NCBI RefSeq assembly: GCF_000517265.1
Contig: NZ_AYSJ01000011.1
Span: forward strand, 310,091 to 374,090
Direction of reading: 5' to 3'
From: Photorhabdus khanii NC19
Lineage (GTDB): Bacteria; Pseudomonadota; Gammaproteobacteria; Enterobacterales; Enterobacteriaceae
Length of the DNA: 64,000 bases
A model generated the notes under the pieces. It saw nothing but the letters and a program-made list of their open reading frames with translations, was not told the origin of the DNA and searched no databases. Positions 2 to 60,347 of this stretch are shown here, piece by piece. How positions within the stretch are numbered: position 1 is the stretch's first letter; every line of letters begins with the position of its first letter. The translations under genes were made by a program, and so were the position numbers.

Positions 2-3000
2 GATCGCAATGCGCTGAGTCAGCTAACGCAGGATAAAGTTCTTGAGGCGGCACATATACCCTCGACCGAACTTGAAAAAACCTTGGTTAAAATATGGCAA
101 AGCGTTCTGAACATCAGCAATGTTGGTATCAAGGATAGTTTCTACGCTATCGGTGGTGATTCAATCCTGATGCTGAAAATCCGTTCCGAAGCTGAAAAAG
201 CAGGTATCAAAGTCACTCTGTCGCAGTTAACACAATACCTGACCATTGCTGAGTTGAGCCATCAGGTTGAACTCTCACAACCTATCGCAGATACGTTGGA
301 TCTGTTGCCATTTGCTCTGATTGATGAAGCTGAAAAGGCCAAATTATCTGGTTTTGCAGATGCCTATCCGGCGACACAACTACAACTGGGTTTGATCTAT
401 CATAGCCAGCAGGCCAATGATTCAGCAAAATACAAAGATGTTTTCCGCTATACCCTTCAAACGAAGTGGAACCCCAATCACTTCAGGAAAAGTGCGGTGG
501 TATTGATTCAAAGGCACCCAGCCCTACGTTCACACTTTAATCTGGCTGACTTTAAAGAACCTCTGCAAATTGTGAATGAATCTATTGATATTGATTCAGT
601 CGTTGCAATTACTGATCTCAGTGAAATTGATATTGTCCGCGCTGAATATCAAATTATCCAATATATGCATCAGCAGACACGCCATCATTACCTCTTCGAT
701 CGTGCACCACTATTTAACATCAGATTATTTAAAACAGCAGAAGCGCTTGAACTCATTCTGAGTTTTCACCATGCAATCCTGGATGGCAGCAGTGTGGCTA
801 ATCTGATACGCGAATTACTGCATCACTATATTGATAGTGATGGAAATGGTATTACTGATATCCGTCTGCCGTCACCCGCATTGTCTGTACGGAATGAGCG
901 ACTATCGTTGACATCCGTAGAGGACAAAATCTATTGGCAGAATGAACTTTCCGGATTATCCCGAACACAGGTCACAGGCTATAGACTCTATGATGTTCCA
1001 TCTGATGAAGTTTTGATATCGAAATCAGTATCAATACCTGATGATATAGAAGAACAGCTAAAAGACTGGGTACAACAAAAACGTGTATCAACTAAATCCG
1101 TATTTTTCGCTGCGCATTGCGTCACAATTGCCTTATTTGCTGAACAGGATGAAATTGCAACGGGCTTAATCACTCATAGTCGGCCTGAGGTACAGAACTC
1201 AGAATATTTATTGGGGTTATTCCTTAATACATTACCGGTTCGTTTTTCAGCAACAGGTAAAACCTGGATAGAATGTGTCAATGACGTCTTTATCACAGAG
1301 CAACGTCATTCACCACATAGAAAATACCCTCTGAATGCTATCCAGCAAGCTGCGGGTGATGGAGCAAAAATCAGCACTGCTTTTAACTATGTCTATTTCC
1401 ATGCGTTAGCAGAAGTCTTTAATTCCCCTGATTTGCATTTGATTTCATTCACGCCCTGGGAAGAAACCAACTTTGAAATCCTGGTCAACGTTATGACGGA
1501 TTTTGCTACTGGCCGTAACGTATTACGCTGTGACTTTGATGGTACGGTATTCTCATCGGTTCAGGCTGATATGTTTATTGATGCCTACTTAGCTATTCTC
1601 AGAAATATTGTCAACCAAAGTGACGAAGAAGCCTCACTTAGCACCATACCCAAAATACCCACTCATGCTATTACTGCTTCTTCAACTTTCACATCTGTTA
1701 TTGATGCGATCAGTTGGGCTGTCAGCCAGCATAAGTCGGCAATCGCGCTGAAATATGGTGATGAAAAATGGCAATTTGATGAACTTTGGCATAAATCGGC
1801 ACTTATCGCTGATGCTTTAGTAAAACGGGGCGCTCACGCAGAAATGCCAATAGGGATTGCTCTGAAGCGTTCCCCGGAATTGATTGCAACATTGATCGGT
1901 GTATTACGTGCAGGAGGGATCTGTCTGCCGCTGGATTTAAGTTATCCAGCCCAACGTATTGAAGCAATGATTGAGCAGGTAAAACCCTTGATCATTATTA
2001 CCAATACAGAGCAGCAGCCAACAAGCCCTCTACTTTCCTCTACGCCATTAATTGATGTGAATGAGTTGCTTCAAGGGCCAGATTCATTAATACAACCGAC
2101 TGCCGTTACTATTGCTCCTGAGCAGATAGCCTATTTACTCTTCACTTCCGGCTCTACCGGTATACCAAAAGGCGTTGCCATGCCGCATCGAAGTCTGGCT
2201 AATTTAGTGAAATGGCAAAACACAACAACCAGTGGAATCCGGGCATCATCGACACTGCAATATGCACCACTGAGTTTTGATGTTTCGTTCCAGGAAATTT
2301 TCTCCACATTAGCCTCAGGCGGAACATTACATCTTGTCAGCGATGAACAGCGCAAAGATCCAGCTAACCTGCTCCGATTGCTTCATCAGCACCAAATCGA
2401 GCGCATTTATCTGCCTTATGTTGCCCTGCAACAATTGGCAGAAACAGCGGATACATTGAATATTTACCCTGAAAAGCTAAAAGTGGTGATTTCATCAGGA
2501 GAGCAGTTACGCGTTACGGATGAAATCAGGAAGCTCATTGGCAAACTCGAAGATGGGCTCCTTGAAAACCAGTATGGACCAACGGAAACACACGTTATTA
2601 CCTCATTTACCATGAGCGGTAATCCTGAAACTTTCCCGGCACTGCCGCCTATCGGAACCGCGATTGACAATTCTAACGTATTGATCCTGAATGATAAGCT
2701 ACAGGAAGTTTTACCTGGAGTACGTGGTGAGATTTATGTCAGTGGCCCCTTATTAGCCCTGGGATATTACAATCAACCGGAACTGAGCGCTGAACGTTTT
2801 ATTACACTCACAAACTCCCCAAGGAAATGGTATCGTACCGGCGATCTGGGCATCAAATTGAATAATGGTGTGATATTGTGCCTGGGACGTAAAGACTCCC
2901 AAGTTAAGGTACGCGGTTACCGGGTCGAGCTGGCCGAAGTGGAACTCGCTATTGCCAATACACCAGGTGCAGATAAATTCATCAAAGACGTCGCCGTTGT

Positions 3001-4363
3001 TGTTCAACAACGTAACACCAATGACCGTTTTCTGGTGGCATTCCTAGTGGGAGAAAAGAGTGACAATATAGTTGATAAGGTATCTGAGCATCTGCTTGCC
3101 ACTCTGCCGCAATATATGATCCCCAGCCATATCGAATGGTTGGATTCCCTGCCTAAAACACCGAGTGGCAAAAGGGATGACAGTCAATTAAGCCAAACCG
3201 TTATCACCCGACAACCTATCGACCGTCATGATGGGAAACCTGACGATAGCTATGAGCGTATATTATGCGAACTGGCTGCCGATTTATTAAAGATCCCATC
3301 GATTTCTGTACATCAGAATCTGTTCGATATGGGAGGAACCTCTCTGACAGCCATGCGTTTGGTGGTACTGGTTGAAAAACATTTTGCCGTCAATATTCCG
3401 CTATCGGTATTTGTCAGTGATCCAACAATTGCTCAGTTAGCGCTGCGGGTGCGCCACAGTGATGCACAAGCGCACTTTAGCCCATTGGTGCCGATGCGTA
3501 CCACCGGTAAACGCCGCCCACTATTCTTTGTCCATCCCATGGGCGGTAACGTTCTGTCTTACCTGCGTTTAGTTAAACACTTCCCGGCTGACCAGCCATT
3601 TTATGCATTGCAGGCTCATGGCGTTGAAGCGGGATCAACACCTCTCGCCACGATACAACAGCAGGCAGCTAACTATATTCAAACTATCCAGCAGATACAG
3701 CCACAAGGGCCTTATTCACTGGGCGGCTGGTCATATGGCGGCTTTGTCGCTTTCGAAATGGCCCGGCAACTGAAAGAAGCAGGCGAAAAAATAGCAGACC
3801 TTTTTGTATTGGATACAACGGCGCTGAATGAGCAATCACGGGGCAAAACAGATGATAACGCCTTGTTGAATTGGTTCTTCTGGGAACTGCTATGGCTTAA
3901 CCAAGGCGCGAATTTACCTGAACAAATTGTTCCTGAATACATCACCACCTTACAGGAGCGTTTTGAATATATTACCGAACACGCCATTGCTACCGGAGCC
4001 ATTCCACAGGGGAGTTCAAGAGCTGTGGTACAGCGACTGTTTGAAGTCTACAAGACTAACTGGCAGGCTGCCGCGGATTATTCAACTCACCATATTGCTG
4101 ATATTGATATGACATTGTTGCATGCAACCCAACCTTTACCGGATGTATTGCGTTCGATGCATGACACGATCCGCAGTGAATATCGTGATCCCAAAAATGG
4201 CTGGGGTAATAAGACTACAGGTAAGTTAAATGTCATTGATGTCCCTGGCGATCATCTGGAAATAATGGAAGAACCCTACGTTGCCGAGGTAGCAAAAGTA
4301 ATTTTGAATGAAATGCGTATCTCCTCCTCTCTAACCGCAACATCAATTAAGAGCATAAAATGA
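2..4363 (+). CDS. Non-ribosomal peptide synthetase, C-terminal part (T-C-A-T-TE), 5' end outside window
   Basis: The reading frame is open from base 2, so the gene begins upstream. Visible order: the end of an adenylation domain, a carrier domain (GGDSI around 145-165), a condensation domain (HHAILDG at 767-787), an adenylation domain (FTSGSTG, NQYGPTE, YRTGDLG, KVRGYRVE and a PKTPSGK end), a second carrier domain (GGTSL) and a type I thioesterase (GGWSYGG, Ser codon at 3731). This is a terminating module: it loads one residue, condenses it and releases the chain. Aligning by eye to the GrsA pocket gives D-V-Q-Y-I-S-Q-V-I, for which I name no substrate. The stop overlaps the next start by four bases (ATGA), so the monooxygenase is translationally coupled. 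Cytoplasmic assembly line; product unknown. Confidence 0.95.
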   Translation, partial: DRNALSQLTQDKVLEAAHIPSTELEKTLVKIWQSVLNISNVGIKDSFYAIGGDSILMLKIRSEAEKAGIKVTLSQLTQYLTIAELSHQVELSQPIADTLDLLPFALIDEAEKAKLSGFADAYPATQLQLGLIYHSQQANDSAKYKDVFRYTLQTKWNPNHFRKSAVVLIQRHPALRSHFNLADFKEPLQIVNESIDIDSVVAITDLSEIDIVRAEYQIIQYMHQQTRHHYLFDRAPLFNIRLFKTAEALELILSFHHAILDGSSVANLIRELLHHYIDSDGNGITDIRLPSPALSVRNERLSLTSVEDKIYWQNELSGLSRTQVTGYRLYDVPSDEVLISKSVSIPDDIEEQLKDWVQQKRVSTKSVFFAAHCVTIALFAEQDEIATGLITHSRPEVQNSEYLLGLFLNTLPVRFSATGKTWIECVNDVFITEQRHSPHRKYPLNAIQQAAGDGAKISTAFNYVYFHALAEVFNSPDLHLISFTPWEETNFEILVNVMTDFATGRNVLRCDFDGTVFSSVQADMFIDAYLAILRNIVNQSDEEASLSTIPKIPTHAITASSTFTSVIDAISWAVSQHKSAIALKYGDEKWQFDELWHKSALIADALVKRGAHAEMPIGIALKRSPELIATLIGVLRAGGICLPLDLSYPAQRIEAMIEQVKPLIIITNTEQQPTSPLLSSTPLIDVNELLQGPDSLIQPTAVTIAPEQIAYLLFTSGSTGIPKGVAMPHRSLANLVKWQNTTTSGIRASSTLQYAPLSFDVSFQEIFSTLASGGTLHLVSDEQRKDPANLLRLLHQHQIERIYLPYVALQQLAETADTLNIYPEKLKVVISSGEQLRVTDEIRKLIGKLEDGLLENQYGPTETHVITSFTMSGNPETFPALPPIGTAIDNSNVLILNDKLQEVLPGVRGEIYVSGPLLALGYYNQPELSAERFITLTNSPRKWYRTGDLGIKLNNGVILCLGRKDSQVKVRGYRVELAEVELAIANTPGADKFIKDVAVVVQQRNTNDRFLVAFLVGEKSDNIVDKVSEHLLATLPQYMIPSHIEWLDSLPKTPSGKRDDSQLSQTVITRQPIDRHDGKPDDSYERILCELAADLLKIPSISVHQNLFDMGGTSLTAMRLVVLVEKHFAVNIPLSVFVSDPTIAQLALRVRHSDAQAHFSPLVPMRTTGKRRPLFFVHPMGGNVLSYLRLVKHFPADQPFYALQAHGVEAGSTPLATIQQQAANYIQTIQQIQPQGPYSLGGWSYGGFVAFEMARQLKEAGEKIADLFVLDTTALNEQSRGKTDDNALLNWFFWELLWLNQGANLPEQIVPEYITTLQERFEYITEHAIATGAIPQGSSRAVVQRLFEVYKTNWQAAADYSTHHIADIDMTLLHATQPLPDVLRSMHDTIRSEYRDPKNGWGNKTTGKLNVIDVPGDHLEIMEEPYVAEVAKVILNEMRISSSLTATSIKSIK

Positions 4364-5520
4364 ACAAATCTTTGAAAATCATTATCATAGGTGCAGGAAT
4401 TGGTGGGTTGACGACCGCCATCGCTCTGCAACACATCGGTTGCACCGTTGAGATCTACGAACAAGCACCGGAGCTGAGGACCCGTGGTTCTGGGTTATCC
4501 GTGATGTCTAATGCTTCAGTTGCGCTTGGTACTCTGGGTATCAATCTTAATTTGGAGCACTTCGGTGCTCCTGCCAAAACCTTTGAAATACGTACTGCTG
4601 GCGATCGTTTGTTAAGGCGACTACCTCTGGCAGAGGTTTCCGCAGAAAACGGCGCTGCCAGCGTGTGTATTTCGCGTCAAGCATTACAGCAAGCACTGTT
4701 GCAACAGTTGCCTGATATTGAAGTCAAAGTATCCGCTAGGGCAGTTGAAATTAATCAATCTGCCACTGGTGTGTCTGTGAAGTTTGCTGATGGCCGTGAA
4801 GCCCAAGGAGACATACTCATCGGTGCCGATGGTATTTATTCTACTGTGCGGTCTCTAATGCAGAGTTCAGAACCTATCCGCACTGCTGATTATATTTGCT
4901 GGCTAGCTATCACTCGTTACCAGCATCAACAAATTACGCCAGGTTATATCGTGCATTATTGGGGGGCCGGTAAACGGATTGGTTTAATTGACATTGGCGG
5001 GGGAGAAGTCTATTGGTGGGGAACAGCCAATATGAAAGACAAACAAGCGCGAACCTGGCAAGGCTCCAACCAAGATGTTGCAGATTTCTACCAAGGCTGG
5101 CCGAATATTGTCTCAGATATCATCTTAAAAACGCCTTCGACAGACATTATCGCTGTTCCCGCTCAGGATCGTCCTTTTTCTCCACATTGGGGGACAGGTC
5201 GCATCACATTATTAGGCGATGCAGCGCATCCCATGCTAGCCAGCCTAGGGCAAGGAGCCGGAATGGCAATGGAAGATGCTGCTGTTCTGGCTCACGCTAT
5301 CATGCAGAAAGCTGATCCTATAGCTGCGTTGCGTTTTTATGAAAAAACACGCATCCCAAGAGCAGAAATGATGGTCAATGCCTCAAGATCGATGAGTGAT
5401 ATTGAGCAGGAGGATCGTTTTTTCCCTCGACTGAAACGAGATCTGGCACTGCGCCTGGCGCCTAAATCCGCATTGAAACAGAATATCAAAAGTTCCCTGA
5501 TATTTACCCTGGACAGTTGA
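4360..5520 (+). CDS. FAD-dependent (group A) aromatic-type monooxygenase, NRPS tailoring enzyme
   Basis: The 386-residue protein opens with a Rossmann GAGIGG motif at about residues 11-16. It carries the middle ADG motif (IGADGIYSTVR) and the FAD ribityl-binding GDAAHPM followed by GQGAGMAMEDA near residues 285-310. This is the pattern of single-component, NAD(P)H-using flavin monooxygenases such as salicylate or 3-hydroxybenzoate hydroxylases. ATG overlaps the NRPS stop (ATGA), so it very probably oxidises the NRPS product or a carrier-bound intermediate. No signal peptide or membrane segment is seen. The substrate cannot be read from sequence; a stand-alone aromatic hydroxylase is the alternative. 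Confidence 0.9.
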   Translation: MNKSLKIIIIGAGIGGLTTAIALQHIGCTVEIYEQAPELRTRGSGLSVMSNASVALGTLGINLNLEHFGAPAKTFEIRTAGDRLLRRLPLAEVSAENGAASVCISRQALQQALLQQLPDIEVKVSARAVEINQSATGVSVKFADGREAQGDILIGADGIYSTVRSLMQSSEPIRTADYICWLAITRYQHQQITPGYIVHYWGAGKRIGLIDIGGGEVYWWGTANMKDKQARTWQGSNQDVADFYQGWPNIVSDIILKTPSTDIIAVPAQDRPFSPHWGTGRITLLGDAAHPMLASLGQGAGMAMEDAAVLAHAIMQKADPIAALRFYEKTRIPRAEMMVNASRSMSDIEQEDRFFPRLKRDLALRLAPKSALKQNIKSSLIFTLDS

Positions 5521-33782: not shown

Positions 33783-35381
33783 TCAATAAACTGAGACGAA
33801 CTTCACCTTCCAACAACGTGAATCACTGATATAGAGATCAGGCTTATTCGTTTCAGGATCAAATATAAAATCAATAATAAATTTAGTGCTTGGTGAGAAA
33901 TAACTATTCGCGTAAATACACCGTAAAATTTCTTTTTTTCCAGGATAGACAACACCATCAATATAAATCCCATCACCAGAAGCTGCGACAGTCAGAGTCG
34001 CTTCTGTTTCATGGCTATAATAGTTCCCTAATAACTGCTTAATATCGACACCACCTTTATCAATCTTCTTATGTAAATAAAAAGTATTGCCATTCCTATT
34101 AATCTCTTCCAGTGCTATCACACGATCATATTTAATGATAGGTCTGAATCGGATTTTACCTCCCTCTTCCTGGAATGTGCCATCAGAGTTAAAGATAATC
34201 GGGTTACCTTTTCCGAATAAATTCCCTAATAAATAGCAATCTTCCTTGGTAATAATATAAGGATAAGGATCCGCCCCTCGGAAAATACCAGTGATATCGA
34301 TATGACTGATTTGGCAATACGGTTTTTTTGGCTCAATCATGTCGGTGTTAAACAACACATCAAGCCCCTGACCAATCAATTTAGTGACTTCAATATTTGT
34401 TGCAGTGATAATAGCGACACCTAACTTGACATCAGGCAAAATGCAAACATCAGATTTAAAGCCACCATAATCGCCACCGTGTCGTATCATCTTTTGTCCT
34501 TCATGTTCGCTGATAAAAAAACCGTAAGCATAATTATTACGATTGCCATTCGTTAAATCTGGCGCACAGGATAAATAAGGCAACAAATCCTGTACAATAG
34601 ATGGCGAATAAAATGCTTTTATCCAGCGACACAAATCATTTATCGTAGAATGAAGCCCTGAAGCCCCTACCACCGCATCGTTAAGATCATTTCTTTTCCA
34701 CTGGTTCAAACTCTCATCATAAGCGTAGCCTATTGCTCGATCAAAGATAATCTCGGTTATATCATCATAGAAAAAAGTATCTTTCATCTTTAATGGGGCA
34801 AAAACATTTTCTTCTGCATATTCTCTCAGTGATTTACCTGAAACCACTTTGACTATTTCCGCCAGCAGATTATAGCCAGTGTTGCTATACAGATGGTATC
34901 CCCCAGGAGTAAAGTTAAGTGCTTGTTGCCGTTGAACCAGTTTTCTCACTAAATCAATATTGCGGTAGTCAAAGTCTGCGTTTTTACCCGCCAAACTATA
35001 AAGCAAAAACACATCCCGTAACCCACTGGTATGATGAATAAGATGCGCAATGGTAATATCAGGGAAATCGGCGGGGAAATAATCCAAATATTGTCTGACC
35101 TTATCATTAACGCAGAGCTTTCCTTCTTTTTCCAACAAGGCAATGCAAAAAGCCGTAAATTGTTTTGAAACACTCGCGAAATAGAATTTAGTTCTGGGGT
35201 GTGCAGCAACCGCGTGTTCAATATTGGCTTTACCAATATAGCGTTCATAAATAGTTTTATTTCCGTGGGTAACAACAACAGCAAGGGCCCCACCATTTTT
35301 CTTATCTTCAATATCAACCAGTTTATTTATCTTATCGATAAATAACTTAATATTATCTGTAGATATATTCGATTCCATCAT
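33783..35381 (-). CDS. Beta-lactamase-fold serine hydrolase, paralog 1 (family S12/class C)
   Basis: The 532-residue protein has the three catalytic motifs: SVSK (S70-K73), YSN (Y165-N167) and HGG (about 301-303, in place of KTG). LIHHTSGLRD is also characteristic. About 170 residues of beta-rich C-terminal domain follow. No signal peptide or transmembrane helix is visible, unusual for PBP-type enzymes. AAGGAATT precedes MMESNISTDN. It is followed by no gene on its strand and preceded by two close paralogs with duplicated flanks. The substrate is unknown: a peptide, ester or beta-lactam are options. Confidence 0.9.
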   Translation of the reverse strand: MMESNISTDNIKLFIDKINKLVDIEDKKNGGALAVVVTHGNKTIYERYIGKANIEHAVAAHPRTKFYFASVSKQFTAFCIALLEKEGKLCVNDKVRQYLDYFPADFPDITIAHLIHHTSGLRDVFLLYSLAGKNADFDYRNIDLVRKLVQRQQALNFTPGGYHLYSNTGYNLLAEIVKVVSGKSLREYAEENVFAPLKMKDTFFYDDITEIIFDRAIGYAYDESLNQWKRNDLNDAVVGASGLHSTINDLCRWIKAFYSPSIVQDLLPYLSCAPDLTNGNRNNYAYGFFISEHEGQKMIRHGGDYGGFKSDVCILPDVKLGVAIITATNIEVTKLIGQGLDVLFNTDMIEPKKPYCQISHIDITGIFRGADPYPYIITKEDCYLLGNLFGKGNPIIFNSDGTFQEEGGKIRFRPIIKYDRVIALEEINRNGNTFYLHKKIDKGGVDIKQLLGNYYSHETEATLTVAASGDGIYIDGVVYPGKKEILRCIYANSYFSPSTKFIIDFIFDPETNKPDLYISDSRCWKVKFVSVY

Positions 35382-35503
35382 TAATTCCTTTATTTCAAAT
35401 TATACAAAAAGGTATATACATGAATTTTAGTAGAAAATATCTTTATAATCTCAATAGAATCCACACCATCCTGCCAGATAAACGCTATTTTCAGCCATAT
35501 CAA

Positions 35504-37099
35504 TTAAACTGCGACGAATTCTACCTTCCAGCAACGACTATCGCTGAGAAAAAGACGAGGTTCATTCGTATCAGGATCCAACTCAAAATCAATAATAAGC
35601 TCAGTGCTGGGAGAAAAATAACTATTGCCGTAAACCCGCCGTAAGACTTCTTTACTTTTAGGAGAGATGATCGCATCAATATAAAGTTCATTACCAGAAG
35701 CCACGACAGTAAGAATCGCTTCTGTTTCGTGGTTATAATAACGCCCTAACAGTAGCTGAACATCGACACCACCATTATCAATCTTCTTATCTAAATAAAA
35801 AACATTGCCATCTTCATTAATCTGTTCCAGTGCAATAACACTGTCATCTTCAATGACAGGTCTAAACCGGATTTGTCCTCCCTCTTCTTGGAATGTACCA
35901 TCAGAATTAAAGATAATCGGGTTGCCTTTTTCGAATAAATTACCTAATAAATAGCAATCTTCTTTGGTAATAATATAAGGATAAGGTTCTATTCCTTTGA
36001 ACATACCTGTAATATCAACATTACTGGTCCGACAAGTCTGTTTTTCTGGTTTAGCACCGTCGACATTAAACAATACATCAATACACTGTTGAATAAATTG
36101 AAAGGCATCAGTATTTGTTGCAGAAGTCACAGCAATCCCTAATTTATCATCAGGCAAAATCAAAACTTCTGATTTGAAGCCACTATAACTACCACCATGT
36201 CGTATTATCTTTTTCCCCTCACGTTGGTTGATAATAAAACCATAAGCATAATTATTACGATTGCCATTGGTTAAATCTGGCGTACGGGATAACTGAGGTA
36301 ATAGATCCTGAACAATGGATGGCGAATAAAACGCTCTCATCCAACGACATAAATCATTCACTGTAGAATGAAGCCCTGAACCCCCAACCACTGCATCATT
36401 AAGATCATCTCTTTTCCACCGGTTTAAATTTTCATCATAGGCGTAGCCCATTGCCCGATCAACGATAATCCCGGTGATATCATCATAGAAAAAGGTATCT
36501 TTCATCTTTAATGGGATGAAAACATTTTCTTCGGCATATTCTCTCAGCGATTTACCTGAAACCACTCTGACTATTTCCGCCAGCAAATTATAGCCAGCGT
36601 TGCTATACAGAAAATATTCCCCAGGAGTAAAATTAAGCGCTTGTTGCCGTTGAGCTAATTTCCTCACCAACTCAATACGGCGGTGATCAAAATCTGCGTT
36701 TTTACCCGCCAAACTATAAAGCAAAAACTCATCCCGTAACCCGCTGGTATGATGAATAAGATGCGCAATGGTAATATCAGAGAAACCAGCAGGGAAATAA
36801 TCTAAATATTGCCCTACTTTATCATTGACAGAAAGCTTTCCTTCTTTTTCCAGCAAAGCAATACAAAAAGCGGTGAATTGTTTTGAAACACTCGCCAGAT
36901 AGAATTTAGTTCTGGGATGTACAGCAACTGCATATTCAATGCTGGATTTCCCAATATAGCGCTCATAAATGGTTTTATTTCCATGAGTGACAGCAACAGC
37001 AAAGGCTCCACCATTTTTCTTATTTTCAATATCAACCAGTTCGTTTATTTTTTCAAGCAACAACTTAATATTATTTGTAGATATATTTGATTCCATCAT
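35504..37099 (-). CDS. Beta-lactamase-fold serine hydrolase, paralog 2
   Basis: The 531-residue paralog starts at the MMESN methionine at 37099, behind AAGGAAATTA; the frame extends 12 codons further upstream without family support. Motifs are SVSK, YSN and HGG, with the same C-terminal domain. Like paralog 1 it has no export signal. The intergenic stretch with CACACCATCCTGCCA is duplicated along with the gene. Confidence 0.9.
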   Translation of the reverse strand: MMESNISTNNIKLLLEKINELVDIENKKNGGAFAVAVTHGNKTIYERYIGKSSIEYAVAVHPRTKFYLASVSKQFTAFCIALLEKEGKLSVNDKVGQYLDYFPAGFSDITIAHLIHHTSGLRDEFLLYSLAGKNADFDHRRIELVRKLAQRQQALNFTPGEYFLYSNAGYNLLAEIVRVVSGKSLREYAEENVFIPLKMKDTFFYDDITGIIVDRAMGYAYDENLNRWKRDDLNDAVVGGSGLHSTVNDLCRWMRAFYSPSIVQDLLPQLSRTPDLTNGNRNNYAYGFIINQREGKKIIRHGGSYSGFKSEVLILPDDKLGIAVTSATNTDAFQFIQQCIDVLFNVDGAKPEKQTCRTSNVDITGMFKGIEPYPYIITKEDCYLLGNLFEKGNPIIFNSDGTFQEEGGQIRFRPVIEDDSVIALEQINEDGNVFYLDKKIDNGGVDVQLLLGRYYNHETEAILTVVASGNELYIDAIISPKSKEVLRRVYGNSYFSPSTELIIDFELDPDTNEPRLFLSDSRCWKVEFVAV

Positions 37100-37241
37100 T
37101 AATTTCCTTACTTTAAGGCTATACAAACAGGGCATACAGATGCAGTCTGGTAGATAATATCTTTAGGATCCCGATAAAATCCACACCATCCTGCCATAAA
37201 AACACTATTCTCAATTCTTATCTGATTTGCAACAATGCCAA

Positions 37242-38837
37242 TTAAATCGGGACAAATTCTATCTTCCAGCAACGTGAATTACTGATAAAAAGGTGAGGTT
37301 TATTCGTGTTAGAATCTAATGCAAAATCAATAACGAATTTAGTACTGGGAGAGAAATAACAATTCCCGTAAACCCGCCGTAAGACTTCTTTTTTCCCTGG
37401 GTAGATAATTCCATCAATATAAATTCCATCTCCAGAAGCTGTGATAGTAAGAATCGCCTCTGTTTCGTGGCTATAATAGCTCCCTGATAACTGCTGAATA
37501 TCGATACTACCTTCATCAATCTTCTTATCTAAATAAAAAGTATTTCTATCTTCATCAGTTTGTTCCAGTGCTACAACACGATCGTTTTTAATAATAGGTC
37601 TGAATTTGTCTTTACCACCCTCCTGTTGAAATGTACCATCATGGTTAAAGACAATCGGGTTACCTTCTTTCAATAAATCACCCAATAAATATGAATCTTC
37701 TTTGGTAATAATATAAGGATAGGGTTTCACCCCTCTAAAAATACCGGTAATATCGACATTACTGGTCCGACAAGGCTGTTTTTCTGGTTTAGCACCGTCA
37801 GGATTAAACAATACATCAAGACATTGATTAACCATTTTAACAACATCAATACTCATTGCGGTAGTAATAGCAATACCCAATTTGGCATCAGGCAACATGT
37901 AAATATTAACTCTAAAGCCAACGTAGTTACCACTATGTTGTATTACCTTTTGTCCTTCACGTTGGTCAATAACAAGGCCGTAAGCATAATTGCTAATATT
38001 GCCATTGGCTAAATGTGGTGTACGGGATAACTGAGGCAGTAGATCCTGAACAATAGATGGCGAATAAAACGCTCTCATCCAGTGACATAAATCATTCACC
38101 GTAGAATAAACGGCCCCTGCACCGGCCACCGAATCGTTGAGGTCATCTCTTACCCACTGATTCGACTCATTTTTATAGGAATAACCCATCGCCCGATCAA
38201 AGATAATCTCGGAGGCGTCATCATAGATACTGGTATCTTTCATCTTTAATGGGGCAAAAACATTTTCTTCGGCATATTCTCTCAGTGATTTACCTGAAAC
38301 CACTTTGACTATTTCCCCCAGCAGATTATAACCCGTGTTGCAATACAGATGGTATTCCCCCGGAGTAAAGTTAAGCACTTGTTGCCGTTGAATTAGCTTG
38401 CTCGCTAAATCAATATTCCTGTGGTCAAAATTTGTATTTTTACCCGCCAGATTATAAAGCAAAAGCTCATCCCGTAACCCACTGATATGGTGGATAAGCT
38501 GTGCAATGGTAATGTCAGAGAAATCTGTAGGTAAATAATCCAAATATTGTCTAACCTTATCATTGACACAGAGCTTTCCCTCTTTTTCCAACAACGCAAT
38601 GCAAAAAGCGGTAAATTGTTTTGAAGCACTTGCTAAATAGAATTTAGTTCCGGAATGTGCGGCTACTGCATGTTCAAAACTAGCTTGCCCAATATAGCGC
38701 TGATAAATTGTTTCATGTCCGTGGGTGATAGCAACCGCGAGGGCTCCACCCTTTTTTTTATTTTCAATATCAACCAATTTATTTATTTCATCGATAAATA
38801 ATTTAATATTATCTGTAGATATAGCCGATTCCATCAT
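37242..38837 (-). CDS. Beta-lactamase-fold serine hydrolase, paralog 3 (diverged active-site motifs)
   Basis: This 531-residue copy starts at 38837 (MMESAISTDN) behind the same AAGGAAATTA site. SxxK is retained as SASK, the tyrosine motif is YCN instead of YSN, and the third motif is HSG instead of HGG. Other blocks (HHISGLRDE, TPGEYHLY) are conserved. The changes suggest a shifted substrate range or weakened activity. It is the most upstream gene of the tandem array, so it may be first in a shared transcript. Confidence 0.9.
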   Translation of the reverse strand: MMESAISTDNIKLFIDEINKLVDIENKKKGGALAVAITHGHETIYQRYIGQASFEHAVAAHSGTKFYLASASKQFTAFCIALLEKEGKLCVNDKVRQYLDYLPTDFSDITIAQLIHHISGLRDELLLYNLAGKNTNFDHRNIDLASKLIQRQQVLNFTPGEYHLYCNTGYNLLGEIVKVVSGKSLREYAEENVFAPLKMKDTSIYDDASEIIFDRAMGYSYKNESNQWVRDDLNDSVAGAGAVYSTVNDLCHWMRAFYSPSIVQDLLPQLSRTPHLANGNISNYAYGLVIDQREGQKVIQHSGNYVGFRVNIYMLPDAKLGIAITTAMSIDVVKMVNQCLDVLFNPDGAKPEKQPCRTSNVDITGIFRGVKPYPYIITKEDSYLLGDLLKEGNPIVFNHDGTFQQEGGKDKFRPIIKNDRVVALEQTDEDRNTFYLDKKIDEGSIDIQQLSGSYYSHETEAILTITASGDGIYIDGIIYPGKKEVLRRVYGNCYFSPSTKFVIDFALDSNTNKPHLFISNSRCWKIEFVPI

Positions 38838-38939
38838 TAATTTCCTTATTTCAAGGTTATAAAAACAGAGCATATATATGCAGTCTGTTAGATTACGCAT
38901 GCGAGCAATACTGTAAGACGGAAATAGTCAATATCCAAG

Positions 38940-38979: not shown

Positions 38980-39156
38980 GTGACTGCGGACACTCATCCA
39001 GATCAGCGAAATCATATTGGCAATTATTTTGGAACTAATAATGGCATCAAGGAAAAGGCTATTGCCGGGCTAATTGCGACCCGGCGACACAGCTTTATTG
39101 AGTGGAAAGAGATATTTTCTTGGTACGAAAGACCAATACAAGTCCTGACAAAATAG
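38980..39156 (+). CDS. Small ORF with strong ribosome-binding site and Fur-like box (truncated gene?)
   Basis: GTG at 38980 follows AAGGAG with a nine-base spacer and encodes 58 residues beginning MTADTHPDQRNHIGNYFGTN. The last 20 codons overlap the 3' end of the EamA gene on the other strand. Good initiation signals plus a Fur-like site, but an abrupt end, suggest the 5' stump of an iron-regulated gene cut off by the neighbouring insertion. A real small protein is the alternative. No family recognised. Confidence 0.35.
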   Translation: MTADTHPDQRNHIGNYFGTNNGIKEKAIAGLIATRRHSFIEWKEIFSWYERPIQVLTK

Positions 39157-39976
39157 CAGCCATACCCAGCAGACTTAGAGCCGGTAACGAATTTCCCAAA
39201 AATAAATAATCCATTATGGCGGTAACACCAGGAACAAGATAAAACAAACTTGTTACATTCACCAAATTACCACGCTGAATAAGCCGGTAAAGTAATAGTT
39301 GAGCGACAACGGAAATCACTAACCCAAGCCATAATAATGAAATAATAAAACCAGGCACCAGTTGAAATTCAAAAGGCTGGAAAGGAACAAACAGTAAGCA
39401 AAGCAGTAAGCTAACACTATATTGCAGAGGTAAAACCGCTGAAGGCGCTTGATGAATTCGTTTCTGTAAAATCGCACCAAAGCTCATACAAACCAATGCT
39501 GCTAAGGCAAAAGTAATACCTGCAAAGGAAAACCGAGACAACACCAGGCTTTGATACACCACTAATATCAAGCCCAGTAACGCTAATAATAAACCCGCTA
39601 AACGTACAATCGAAAAACGGCGTTCGATCACCAGCAGTGTGATAATCGGTTGAATTCCCATCACTGTCGCCAAAACCCCAGGCGTGATCCCATTATCCAA
39701 AGCAAAAAAATAACAAATAGAATAGCCGCCAATTAATAAAACACCGGTACCGGCTATCTGTTTGCGTGTGCCGTGTACAGGCAGACAATGGCGATTACGC
39801 CTGAATAATAATCCCAGAAATATCAAAAAAATAAGCGCAATAGCAAAGCGCATCGTGAGAATGGCAAATGCGGTACTGTGATCAAGTCCCCATCGAGAAA
39901 AAATCGCACCACTGCTCCACAATAAGACAAACAGCAAAGTCGAGCTATAAGAGATCCATTGAGCTTTAGAAATCAT
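39095..39976 (-). CDS. EamA/DMT-family transporter, probable small-molecule exporter
   Basis: The 293-residue protein has ten hydrophobic helices in two EamA repeats (FVLLWSSGAIFSRWGLDHS at the start, GVTPGVLATVMGIQPI-like and ALLGLILVVYQ in the middle, GVTAIMDYLFLG in the second repeat). DMT carriers of this type export amino acids and metabolites. It lies next to the oxygenase-desaturase-amidinotransferase genes on the same strand, 330 bases downstream, so export of their product is plausible. Confidence 0.88.
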   Translation of the reverse strand: MISKAQWISYSSTLLFVLLWSSGAIFSRWGLDHSTAFAILTMRFAIALIFLIFLGLLFRRNRHCLPVHGTRKQIAGTGVLLIGGYSICYFFALDNGITPGVLATVMGIQPIITLLVIERRFSIVRLAGLLLALLGLILVVYQSLVLSRFSFAGITFALAALVCMSFGAILQKRIHQAPSAVLPLQYSVSLLLCLLFVPFQPFEFQLVPGFIISLLWLGLVISVVAQLLLYRLIQRGNLVNVTSLFYLVPGVTAIMDYLFLGNSLPALSLLGMAAILSGLVLVFRTKKISLSTQ

Positions 39977-40085
39977 AGGAATTTACACCTGTCTGACATT
40001 TAACGTACTCAAACCAACGCAGCCAGCCAAATCTGGCAACACTTGAATATAAACCCTCTCTCAAAGATGGGCATATTACACAGTT

Positions 40086-40223
40086 ATGGATAATAACGGG
40101 GGTGGTGGAGCAGCAGGAGGAGAAATGAAAGCAAAACGCATGCACACATATGCTTCGGCTAATACTAGCCTGGCAGGTGAAATCAGTGTGCATGCGGGTA
40201 ATAGCATTGTCTTCATCTTCTAA
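40086..40223 (+). CDS. Possible 45-residue glycine-rich peptide ORF
   Basis: ATG to TAA encodes MDNNGGGGAAGGEMKAKRMH followed by 25 more residues ending SIVFIF. The Gly-rich start and beta-type C-terminus are not typical of random AT-rich DNA. It lies antisense to the biosynthetic genes in the 330-base gap between the exporter and oxygenase genes. No clear ribosome-binding site is seen. A remnant of a longer gene or chance are alternatives. Confidence 0.2.
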   Translation: MDNNGGGGAAGGEMKAKRMHTYASANTSLAGEISVHAGNSIVFIF

Positions 40224-40308
40224 CACTTACATTAGTCGTTTCTAAATGTAGACGAATATTCCACTATGGTCAAATAGCCATGAAAAATTTTCAACGTCAT
40301 GAACATAC

Positions 40309-41163
40309 CTATGTCCACCAAATAAGATCACCATTTTGCTGTAATCCCATAAAACAGGTCACCAGTAAACGCCGTTCCGGTGAAGAGGTAGCATTACCAT
40401 TCAATACCGCATGGACTAAATTCCCATTCAACAATACCAAATCCCCCGCCTCGATATTAATCACCATACTTGCATGATCTTCCAATAATTCAGGTGGATA
40501 TGGATAACCGCTGTAAGTTAAACCAAGGGCACGACGTGATTGGTCATCGGGTTGAATGTTCCATACTTTTAATTGCCCCCCATTTTGAGGAACGTCAGCG
40601 TAAAAATTTACCGCCATGACACGATTAATTTGTTGGATCTCAAAATCACTCTGGCGCGGATCACTCAACGGTGCAAGATCATCATGAGGTAATAAAAGGA
40701 ATTCGCCGAAATTATTCCAATACACAATTTTTACATTACCCGCAGCGACACCATGATACATGGCAGGACGTGTTACCTGTGAGTTATTAGTGAATTGCTT
40801 AATAAAATTATCCATTGGATTGATTGTATCCTGAAACATCTCACTAATTGTCGGACGGAAATTTTCGGCTTCTTCTATATATTGACGGGTATCTTTTTCA
40901 ATATGAGATGCCCCAATAAAATACCCTTCAACACCATCAATACCTTTGCCGTAACGGGGAGTGCGAGCTGGAGAACGCCAAAAATTTTCAACTATTTTCT
41001 TTCTTTGTTCTGGTGGAAGAAAATGACGAACTCGACAAGCCGCAAGGTGACCATTCAAAAGATCAGAAACCGCATCCATTGATATATCGTTCAACGTTTC
41101 GTGTACAGTAAATTCTGATTCTGCCAGCTTTGTTCCTCTAATGCCGGATCTTTCTTGCATCAT
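40309..41163 (-). CDS. 2-oxoglutarate/Fe(II)-dependent oxygenase-like protein
   Basis: The 284-residue protein shows a double-stranded beta-helix pattern: an HxD pair at H160-D162 (LLPHDDLAPL), strands through NRVMAVNFYADVPQNGGQL, a distal H251 (NGNLVHAV) and arginines at 264-265 (ERRLLVTC) that could bind 2-oxoglutarate. This fits the prolyl-4-hydroxylase-like superfamily, which hydroxylates amino-acid or small-molecule substrates. GGGGAG precedes the double ATG. It is 60 bases downstream of the desaturase gene on the same strand. Confidence 0.8.
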   Translation of the reverse strand: MMQERSGIRGTKLAESEFTVHETLNDISMDAVSDLLNGHLAACRVRHFLPPEQRKKIVENFWRSPARTPRYGKGIDGVEGYFIGASHIEKDTRQYIEEAENFRPTISEMFQDTINPMDNFIKQFTNNSQVTRPAMYHGVAAGNVKIVYWNNFGEFLLLPHDDLAPLSDPRQSDFEIQQINRVMAVNFYADVPQNGGQLKVWNIQPDDQSRRALGLTYSGYPYPPELLEDHASMVINIEAGDLVLLNGNLVHAVLNGNATSSPERRLLVTCFMGLQQNGDLIWWT

Positions 41164-41225
41164 AACAGACTCCCCAATAGTAAATTCGTCGGGCTATCCA
41201 TCAAACCTGTCCTGATTAACCAGGA

Positions 41226-42185
41226 TTATTTTTGCCTTATAAATCTGTGCAGCAGAGATCTACGCCTATGTAAAAAACCTAATATCGCAGGTACTGGACT
41301 AATAATCCTCTTCTGCGCAGCGAGCTGGGTTGAATATTTCCTGCGTAAATCAGGTAACAGCTTCCAGTGGGTGCCACCTGAGATATGATGCTCTTGGTGA
41401 TAACCATCATTAAACATGAATAAATTATAGATACGTCCATAATAGCTCACTGAGTTTGCAAATCTGTTCTCCGGCTGTGCACCATAATGTTCGTAGTAGT
41501 TTTGAATATTAACCAGGACAAAGGCAAAATAGAGAGAGGGTAAATAACAAAATAAAGCCCACTTCCAGGACAAAGTGAATAAGATAATAATCCACACCAC
41601 CTGGAACAATCTATCTAACCTCAATTGCCATAACTCTTTAATTTTACTGGTTCTGGCATTAGAAAGAAGTTTTTCATACCCTTTATCGGCTTTACTAAGT
41701 GGTTTGTGCCAGATAAATAGAGACCAGCACATACGCACAAAACTACTATAAAAGGTAGATGCTGCACCAAGGACAGAATAGTTCCAAAGAGTACTATGCT
41801 CCCCAATTTCTTTGCCATTTATAAAGGTAGAAGAGGTATCCAAAGGTCCGCCTTCACCTACTCCCCGATCGTTATTATATTTGTGGTGATTACGAACATG
41901 GGACAGGTGATAAGACTGTACAGACTGCCCAATATTCATTGAATTCAGTATCGACACAAACCCATTCATTACACGAGAAACGAACCAGGGAGTATGGGTG
42001 AAAAAATGCGATATCACTATTATGTTGTAAGTTGTCATCAGTGTAAGAAGCACAATGTTGACTAACCACCCCATAATAGTGAAATGATCCCAATACATGA
42101 CGAGTGTAACCGTGGCTACCGTATGCGAAATGCTTAATATAAACATGACTGCATCCCAAGCGGAATATTTCCAGATAGCCATCAT
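41226..42185 (-). CDS. Fatty-acid-desaturase-superfamily membrane di-iron oxidase
   Basis: About 319 residues with several membrane segments and three histidine boxes: HFFTH (about 60-64), HVRNHH (about 96-101) and YHQEHH (about 265-270). These bind two irons in membrane desaturases and hydroxylases. The preferred start is 42185 (MMAIWKYSAW) behind AGGAGAG, which overlaps the stop of the amidinotransferase gene (TAG inside the ribosome-binding site), so the two are coupled. An in-frame start at 42200 is possible. Members can act on non-lipid substrates; the substrate here is unknown. Confidence 0.87.
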   Translation of the reverse strand: MMAIWKYSAWDAVMFILSISHTVATVTLVMYWDHFTIMGWLVNIVLLTLMTTYNIIVISHFFTHTPWFVSRVMNGFVSILNSMNIGQSVQSYHLSHVRNHHKYNNDRGVGEGGPLDTSSTFINGKEIGEHSTLWNYSVLGAASTFYSSFVRMCWSLFIWHKPLSKADKGYEKLLSNARTSKIKELWQLRLDRLFQVVWIIILFTLSWKWALFCYLPSLYFAFVLVNIQNYYEHYGAQPENRFANSVSYYGRIYNLFMFNDGYHQEHHISGGTHWKLLPDLRRKYSTQLAAQKRIISPVPAILGFLHRRRSLLHRFIRQK

Positions 42186-42192
42186 TACTCTC

Positions 42193-43293
42193 CTAGTCAA
42201 GATAAGACTGTAAACTTCCGCGCCGCCTTACATCCACTGTTGCACAATGGAAGGAGCCACCGAAGGAGTTAAAGTTCCTGAAATTACATGGAATCGGCGT
42301 AAAGCCCCAACGTTTCATCGCCGCGATCATGGGTTCATCCTGCTTTTCAACAATCACCCGCTTCTCATCCAGCATTAAAATATTCATGTTGATCCATTTA
42401 CTGGTCATATACAGAGGATGGTTGTCAGGAATAACCGGTTCAGGCGCATGCAGCACATCCCATCCTTTAAACAGCTCAGGAACTTTTAACACCTTTTTCG
42501 GGTTAATTAATAGTTTCCCTGGCGCCATAGGAACAAATGTGGCATCAATGTGCATAGGACTATCATCATTAAATTCAAAAACATGAATACGATAATCATC
42601 ACCTAAATGACGACGAAGCCACTCGATACCAAATTCATTCGTGACATGGCTTTTTTGCGCAATGATATCGCGCCCACACCGGATAAAATCCGCAGCATCA
42701 AATGTCGGTTCAAACTCGGTCACAGCAAGAGGAACACGATCTTTGCCATTAGGTTGATCCCATTCGAAATTATATTGTTCATCGATCAACTGTGGTTTTG
42801 GGCCAGAGCTCCATTTCGCGCCCTGTTTAAAATAATCTTTAAGTAGAGTCTTATACGCCGCCGTTTCAAAATAACGGGAGCGCCACGCCAGCGGGCATTC
42901 AATAATATCATCACCAATAACTAACAGCACATCACGGGGCATTGCACAATATAGCCCGGTGCTGCTCCAGCCCGGTGCACCAAATACCAGAGATTGATCC
43001 TGAGGTTCTGGCCGACGTACTGTTACCCCTTCGCTTTCAAGAATATGAACAAACTCTTCTAATTCCCTGGAAGCTGCTTCAATTTGCTCTTGTGGAAATG
43101 ACCGGCCAGCATGCCGTTGAAAAGTAGCAACTTGATTTTCTGGTAGTACAGACTCCAGAGACATATGCCAGGAAGGGAATCTGGCACCATCAACAACACC
43201 GACGATCACCTCTTCAAGAGGATCCCATTCGTTAAAAGAATTAACTGGGGAAGAAATTTTATTGTTACTATCTATTAAATTTGAATCAAGCAT
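42193..43293 (-). CDS. Arginine:amine amidinotransferase (AGAT family)
   Basis: The 366-residue protein has VNSFNEWDPLEEVIVG near the N-terminus, EPTFDAADFIRCGRDI (catalytic Asp about 199-202), SPMHIDATF (His248) and GGSFHCATVDVRR (nucleophile Cys350), the complete catalytic set of L-arginine:glycine amidinotransferases. Such enzymes move the amidino group from arginine to an amine, leaving ornithine. It starts the minus-strand cluster and is coupled to the desaturase gene. The acceptor could be glycine, lysine (as for phaseolotoxin AmtA) or a pathway intermediate. Confidence 0.93.
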   Translation of the reverse strand: MLDSNLIDSNNKISSPVNSFNEWDPLEEVIVGVVDGARFPSWHMSLESVLPENQVATFQRHAGRSFPQEQIEAASRELEEFVHILESEGVTVRRPEPQDQSLVFGAPGWSSTGLYCAMPRDVLLVIGDDIIECPLAWRSRYFETAAYKTLLKDYFKQGAKWSSGPKPQLIDEQYNFEWDQPNGKDRVPLAVTEFEPTFDAADFIRCGRDIIAQKSHVTNEFGIEWLRRHLGDDYRIHVFEFNDDSPMHIDATFVPMAPGKLLINPKKVLKVPELFKGWDVLHAPEPVIPDNHPLYMTSKWINMNILMLDEKRVIVEKQDEPMIAAMKRWGFTPIPCNFRNFNSFGGSFHCATVDVRRRGSLQSYLD

Positions 43294-60252: not shown

Positions 60253-60347
60253 TGGCGGAAGATCACAGGAGTCGAACCTGCCAGAGACCGCTGGCGGCCT
60301 CATCTGGATTTGAAGTCCAGCCGCCCCACCGGGGACGATGATCTTCC
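60253..60347 (-). tRNA. selC: tRNA-Sec (anticodon TCA)
   Basis: A 95-base tRNA read on the minus strand: GGAAGATCATCG at the 5' end, anticodon loop CTTCAAA (TCA), a long variable arm with GCCGCCAGCGGT, T-loop GGTTCGACTCC and CCA encoded at the 3' end. This matches enterobacterial selC closely. It inserts selenocysteine at UGA in, for example, formate dehydrogenases. selC is a well-known island integration site. Confidence 0.97.

Follow-up and report, generated by a model that had tools for sequence, protein, structure and literature searches.

Arginine:lysine (Arg:Lys) amidinotransferases are known from the phaseolotoxin pathway, where AmtA requires a methionine of its flap (M246) and refuses glycine as acceptor (PMC4887976), and the formation of homoarginine (Har) by an amidinotransferase is chemistry of a known kind. 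According to the accessible passages of the respective reports, Photorhabdus khanii produces pioamide, a Photorhabdus antibiotic with the cyclic sequence Har-Har-Ile-Asn-His that is assigned to a non-ribosomal peptide synthetase (NRPS) with five adenylation (A) domains, two adjacent ones being predicted to load arginine (PMC12542766), and P. temperata produces photoditritide, which contains two homoarginines (PMC9002308). The word amidinotransferase has 0 occurrences in the accessible pioamide text, and the passages on either peptide give no source of the homoarginine (PMC12542766, PMC9002308). Here we describe a set of four genes of P. khanii NC19 that would provide such a source. The set is located within a stretch of 64,000 nucleotides (contig NZ_AYSJ01000011.1, positions 310,091 to 374,090), in the following denoted the window, and consists of:

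42193..43293, minus strand: AMT, an AGAT/AmtA-type L-arginine amidinotransferase, probably Arg:Lys (366 aa; assigned by homology and catalytic residues)
41226..42200, minus strand: DES, a membrane di-iron desaturase/hydroxylase (324 aa from a TTG start; assigned by PF00487 and three His boxes)
40309..41163, minus strand: 2OG, a free-standing amino-acid-type Fe(II)/2-oxoglutarate oxygenase of the HilA/WelO5 kind (284 aa; assigned by PF22814 and HxD...H)
39095..39976, minus strand: EamA, an EamA-family (drug/metabolite, DMT) transporter and probable exporter (293 aa; assigned by PF00892)

An initial annotation of the window had already placed four minus-strand genes at these positions and assigned them to the amidinotransferase, desaturase, 2OG/Fe(II) oxygenase and DMT transporter families; the open reading frame (ORF) listing agrees, and homology and profile searches bear out the families. 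All four are genuine, intact genes, and they form a functional unit. The ORFs of AMT and DES overlap by 8 nt as listed. We consider it most likely that AMT makes homoarginine, which would be used both by NRPSs and by an oxidation involving DES and 2OG, and assign a probability of about one half to this two-use homoarginine module.

The functional association is reflected in gene neighbourhoods across phyla. Scanning the genome collection once with a profile of DES yields 31 loci. AMT lies beside DES in all 22 loci whose desaturase is 46-96% identical, representing five phyla, and in none of the nine loci with weaker desaturases (23-27% identity) within the stretches examined. The 22 loci (20 with a complete AMT gene, one with a 3' fragment, L060, and one cut by a contig end, L076) are found in Photorhabdus (7), Xenorhabdus (8), Pyxidicoccus, Candidatus Angelobacter, two other Acidobacteriota, Phaeodactylibacter and two Actinomadura. 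Three of the eight Xenorhabdus loci represent a single X. hominickii locus that occurs repeatedly in its assembly: three contigs of strain DSM 17903 (L071, L072, L073) share an identical stretch of 16,944 nt around the set, flanks included, and we reject them as true copies in favour of assembly redundancy, probably an artefact. A full-length 2OG adjoins DES in 17 of the 22 loci, is decayed in L064 and was not found in L074, L077, L079 and L080, of which L080 spans no more than 3 kb. All 7 Photorhabdus and all 8 Xenorhabdus loci have EamA, as compared to 0/7 of the others. Distances between AMT proteins correlate with those between DES proteins (Mantel r 0.96 for 15 loci without L077, 0.83 for 16 loci including it) and with those between 2OG proteins (r 0.98, 11 loci). 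Chance clustering is rejected, since the co-location of AMT and DES recurs in five phyla. The initial annotation had proposed to look for conserved co-occurrence, whose absence would count against a common function; this objection falls away, since the set is shared by Photorhabdus and Xenorhabdus, and four further phyla have AMT-DES, either together with 2OG or lacking it.

Within Photorhabdus, retention of the four genes is uneven. AMT is intact in all 12 species genomes, a complete DES exists in eight (one flagged with a stop at its extreme end, the coding frame being open) and a complete 2OG in seven; EamA adjoins the block in eight, the window included. In 5 of the 12 genomes the AMT locus has lost the DES-2OG-EamA block and retains a short start of DES. 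Four of these five harbor no complete DES or 2OG elsewhere in the genome. In the fifth (G252), AMT is intact at the old locus, and a complete DES-2OG-EamA block sits at a different place, accompanied by an AMT remnant of just the final 138 codons; the moved block thus persists in a genome that keeps AMT. Among the five deleted loci AMT evolves under purifying selection (dN/dS 0.03-0.14). Being intact and selected where the block is deleted, AMT is useful without its partners, and the initial view of AMT as part of this set only has to be given up, while the set as a functional unit stands.

The same genes occur in a different order in Xenorhabdus, EamA-AMT-DES-2OG as compared to AMT-DES-2OG-EamA in Photorhabdus. 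Among 30 Xenorhabdus genomes, AMT of this type is intact in eight (82-84% identity) and broken in two; five more contain distant AMTs only, and at 1e-60 the remaining 15 have none. In each of the eight genomes with intact AMT, the gene is accompanied by EamA and DES and, up to the point where the loci end, by at least the first part of 2OG; DES is frameshifted in X. hominickii. Among the Xenorhabdus loci inspected, L025, L066 and L071 have a tyrosine-recombinase-like ORF upstream of the set and are flanked by fnr/uspE-like genes; L069 is located at a different site (names of these flanking ORFs were assigned by eye, not by profile). A housekeeping role of AMT is rejected, as 22 of the 30 Xenorhabdus genomes have no intact AMT of this type. 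At 1e-60, any AMT is found in only 12 of 369 Gammaproteobacteria genomes, P. khanii NC19 included. A different AMT type, with the flap DPYPI, adjoins a cytochrome-P450-like gene in two gammaproteobacteria (L112, L116).

A use for AMT outside the set is suggested by the NRPSs of the genome. P. khanii NC19 (G000) has a single AMT and 94 condensation-domain matches. An NRPS with five A domains is encoded in an uninterrupted frame, with flanking stops at G000:C2:990904 and 1006333. Its codes, read by hand, are DVETIGGVT, DVETIGGVT, a DAF-type code, DATSVGEVG and DAAAIAIVA. We take the third to be Val/Ile-like and the fourth to be Asn-like, and the order of domains fits Har-Har-Ile-Asn-His of pioamide. 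The code DVET(I/M)GGVT is present in 27 of the 30 best-matching Photorhabdus domains, at least once in each of the 12 genomes. In the accessible part of a survey of 2051 A domains, DVESIGGVTK, which is one letter from DVETIGGVT, also takes homoarginine (PMC12283262). The motif-based detection of A domains misses some, among them initially the third module of the pioamide-like NRPS, and one A domain lies in masked sequence. The statement of the initial annotation that there is no NRPS or carrier protein holds for the immediate neighbourhood only: the genome contains NRPSs with homoarginine-type codes, and in other phyla NRPSs are found near the set. As a separate observation, the window itself contains a single NRPS module (83-5520; condensation, AMP-binding, carrier, thioesterase), followed by a gene for an FAD-binding enzyme; the A domain has the unusual Pro-like code DVQ?ISQVI. 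The retention of AMT without partners, its being the sole amidinotransferase of P. khanii NC19 and the NRPS fitting pioamide together argue for a homoarginine-forming AMT.

AMT itself shows full-length homology to SxtG (431.7 bits), human AGAT (427.8 bits) and HsvA (420.6 bits; all about 1e-125), and has no Pfam match at 0.001. In an alignment of the window protein with 14 of the 20 complete genes (A6), all 15 rows share D121, D202, H248 and C350, and 14 of them D199, with E in the remaining row, in agreement with the residues named initially. Their catalytic roles are assigned by alignment to human AGAT. By full-length homology and the catalytic Asp, His and Cys, AMT qualifies as an AGAT-type amidinotransferase. 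The 300-flap (as defined in PMC4887976) reads DDSPM and retains the methionine of AGAT and AmtA; it is DPNPM in Xenorhabdus, identical to human AGAT, and DPHPM or DSHPM in other phyla, with DMHPM in AmtA. The DES-linked AMTs cluster together in a tree with moderate support (84/91), except for L077, a different type that is paired with DES despite a flap without methionine (DPKPA).

DES matches PF00487 (3.5e-32) and has the His boxes HFFTH, HVRNHH and HQEHH, all three being kept in the aligned relatives from five phyla (alignment A5, the window and 16 of the 22 loci); by these features it is a membrane fatty-acid-desaturase-like di-iron protein. In several relatives DES begins with MMAIW or MAIW, hence the TTG start listed for the window is probably too early and the start would be the ATG at codon 6 or 7, with which AMT and DES are still almost touching. 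A DES profile run over the 369 Gammaproteobacteria genomes results, besides P. khanii NC19, in only partial weak desaturase matches, and searches of the PDB with DES and 2OG returned no credible match.

2OG matches PF22814, the WelO5 family (1.8e-13), and the NCBIfam model of the L-isoleucine dioxygenase HilA (3.3e-34), the latter scoring 118.5 bits where the cut-off is 500; all 15 members match the HilA model at E<=0.001 (best 1.1e-37). Both matches cover most of the protein and indicate a carrier-free amino-acid oxygenase of this kind. None of the 15 rows of alignment A4 (the window plus 14 of the 17 full-length loci) deviates at H160, D162 and H251, the residues given in the initial annotation, or at R265. 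In carrier-free halogenases of the WelO5 type, HxG or HxA replaces HxD. Since HxD...H is kept in 15/15 rows, 2OG is of hydroxylase type rather than halogenase type, judging by its motif. Relatives of 2OG on seven plasmid records have 29-33% identity; in the two loci that were opened they adjoin neither AMT nor DES. EamA matches PF00892 (3.3e-22) in two stretches, as expected for its two repeats, and is a probable exporter.

Taken together, AMT would catalyse amidino transfer from L-arginine to the epsilon-amine of L-lysine, with homoarginine and ornithine as products. In Photorhabdus, homoarginine would be loaded in trans by A domains with the code DVET(I/M)GGVT, for example those of the pioamide-like NRPS, a step with genomic support; a need of these domains for homoarginine would explain why AMT is kept where DES, 2OG and EamA are lost. 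The pioamide and photoditritide pathways consume homoarginine (PMC12542766, PMC9002308), and AMT would be its supplier. In the second use, homoarginine, or a guanidino amino acid close to it, would have its side chain desaturated or hydroxylated by DES; a further hydroxylation by 2OG would follow, and EamA would export the free amino acid. DES and 2OG likely act on the product of AMT, as both travel with it across phyla. Our best guess for the product of the set is a modified guanidino amino acid, most likely oxidised homoarginine or a close relative. The AMT-DES(-2OG) core of other phyla may supply the same kind of building block to a nearby NRPS: NRPS genes, recognised by motif, are close to L074, L075, L077 and L078 (Acidobacteriota, Myxococcota, Bacteroidota), so that a peptide building block is the probable product there. 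Where a transporter is present and no NRPS adjoins the set, as in Photorhabdus and Xenorhabdus, the product may be released free.

Several points weigh against the homoarginine module. The gap of 332 nt between EamA and 2OG and the altered position of EamA make its membership less certain, and promoter and terminator matches in the window set do not exceed those in shuffled sequence. With one row per lineage the AMT-DES correlation is weak (7 rows, r 0.34, p 0.14), one of the seven rows being L077 with its different type of AMT. The AGAT-type flap leaves the acceptor undecided, because DPNPM of Xenorhabdus is also the flap of human AGAT, a glycine user, and HsvA, whose acceptor is a polyamine, likewise retains the methionine; the flap alone is insufficient as proof of a lysine acceptor. 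Positions of the code residues were identified manually, and DAAAIAIVA, the fifth code, is without assignment. The authors of the pioamide report predict arginine for the two domains (PMC12542766), and DVETIGGVT may load arginine in other NRPSs. Finally, DVET(I/M)GGVT is found in 0 of 29 A domains read from Xenorhabdus, where 10 of the 30 genomes passed the threshold and one of 30 loci gave no reading.

The strongest competitor, possible and yet rather unlikely, is a different guanidino compound: AMT would amidinate an amine other than lysine, such as glycine, beta-alanine, GABA or ornithine, with DES and 2OG oxidising the product. This would agree with the AGAT-like flap and the absence of the homoarginine-type code in Xenorhabdus, with the nearly equal scores of AMT against SxtG, AGAT and HsvA, and with the pairing of DES and a methionine-free flap in L077. 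The homoarginine peptides of Photorhabdus nevertheless require a source of homoarginine, for which P. khanii NC19 offers a single AMT, and very short acceptors such as glycine would leave the desaturase nothing sensible to act on.

Less probable still is that guanidine serves as a leaving group. DES or 2OG would hydroxylate the carbon beside the guanidino nitrogen, guanidine would be lost, and the resulting aldehyde would close to a cyclic imine and be converted to a proline- or pipecolate-like amino acid. Precedents exist in that a desaturase homologue takes part in the conversion of xenocoumacin 1 to 2 in Xenorhabdus and that plant homoarginine-6-hydroxylases liberate guanidine. In two of the three Acidobacteriota loci 2OG is followed by a gene with a weak match to pyrroline-5-carboxylate reductase. 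Moreover, Pro-type DVQ codes account for 7 of the 20 A domains detected in the four NRPS neighbourhoods, with at least one in each, as compared to 71 Pro domains among 2051 in the accessible part of the survey (PMC12283262). The count takes two domains seen twice once per place and drops an acyl-ligase-like match in L123; a single genome contributes four of the seven domains, and ordinary proline is itself common. A DVQF domain of this type is seen in all four neighbourhoods (L074, L075, L077, L078 with extensions L118-L125), and Gln replaces His at position 322 in five of the seven. The Pro-type domains and the reductase match hint at a ring-closed product and are not conclusive. The Photorhabdus and Xenorhabdus sets are without a reductase, and building homoarginine only to drop its guanidine would be wasteful. 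Free guanidine as the main product is rejected, since no guanidine riboswitch was found in the window or in eight related loci.

That AMT and the remaining genes are two unrelated neighbours, AMT serving NRPSs and DES-2OG-EamA a separate pathway, appears very unlikely: AMT does outlive the block in Photorhabdus and EamA does change place, whereas AMT-DES adjacency recurs in five phyla, AMT-DES-2OG adjacency in two, and all eight Xenorhabdus genomes with intact AMT have DES and EamA alongside. A phaseolotoxin-like (phosphoramidate) pathway or its remnant is scarcely credible. The phaseolotoxin genes likewise include an Arg:Lys amidinotransferase and desaturase-like genes, whereas no ArgK or Pht gene was recognised among the ORFs at 33-50 kb (nine of them profile-searched) or, by eye, in related loci, the rest of the genome not having been searched for ArgK.

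The comparison with amtA and desI drawn in the initial annotation is not borne out by the neighbouring genes, which do not fit; DesI itself was not part of the comparison. What AMT shares with AmtA (compared by description, not by alignment) is the AGAT type, the flap methionine, a proposed role in homoarginine formation and desaturase genes in the wider cluster; it differs in being paired with a HilA-type oxygenase and EamA, with no Pht or ArgK gene recognised nearby, and in being retained alone in part of Photorhabdus. Clusters of the HsvA/phevamine type also contain an AGAT-type AMT, about 50% identical to that of the window, along with other partners. A second AMT locus of Photorhabdus (L036:1526-9968 in G246, L038:5460-13904 in G248) has the order SpeD-SpeE-AMT-ligase-like-ATP-grasp-ABC-desaturase, with S-adenosylmethionine decarboxylase, spermidine synthase, an HsvA-like AMT that is broken in L038, and an ABC transporter; the locus is, as we see it, reminiscent of phevamine. 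The best plasmid matches to DES are all rhizobial (29-32% identity, 19 hits) and lie beside arginase-family and EamA-type genes in 5/5 opened loci. These loci (L090, L091, L227-L229) contain genes for a phosphatase, an aminotransferase, an arginase, an EamA-type protein, a DES-like desaturase, a hydrolase, a GNAT-like protein and EamA. Here the arginase family replaces the amidinotransferase, and hydrolase, GNAT and aminotransferase are extra; the arrangement fits a desaturase branch acting on guanidino or amino-alkyl substrates.

Next to the set, the window contains three tandem beta-lactamase-family genes (33783-38900, one of them profile-searched). One to five such genes are found near AMT in 11 other Photorhabdus loci, including those with deleted block, and none was seen in the eight Xenorhabdus loci. 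The array is rejected as part of the set because it stays where the block is deleted and is not seen in Xenorhabdus. A selenocysteine tRNA gene is located at 60257-60347 on the minus strand.

In the open literature searched the four-gene set is undescribed; the original photoditritide paper was not covered and may propose a source of homoarginine. From its sequence and distribution, the set appears to be a real, conserved and mobile guanidino module, in which the homoarginine role of AMT has genomic support. More tentatively, AMT-DES-2OG could constitute an undescribed, horizontally moving pathway to oxidised homoarginine (dehydro-, hydroxy- or ring-closed), with DES as a new family of desaturases on guanidino amino acids; in Acidobacteriota, Myxococcota and Bacteroidota its product would serve an NRPS as building block, and the insect-pathogenic symbionts Photorhabdus and Xenorhabdus would release it as a free antimetabolite. 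For Photorhabdus, AMT represents a testable genetic source for the homoarginine of peptide antibiotics such as pioamide. The natural losses, one frameshifted and one decayed copy, and one moved block are ready comparisons for metabolite profiling. The small desaturase family, linked to amidinotransferases in five phyla, likely oxidises guanidino amino acids, a little-explored chemistry.

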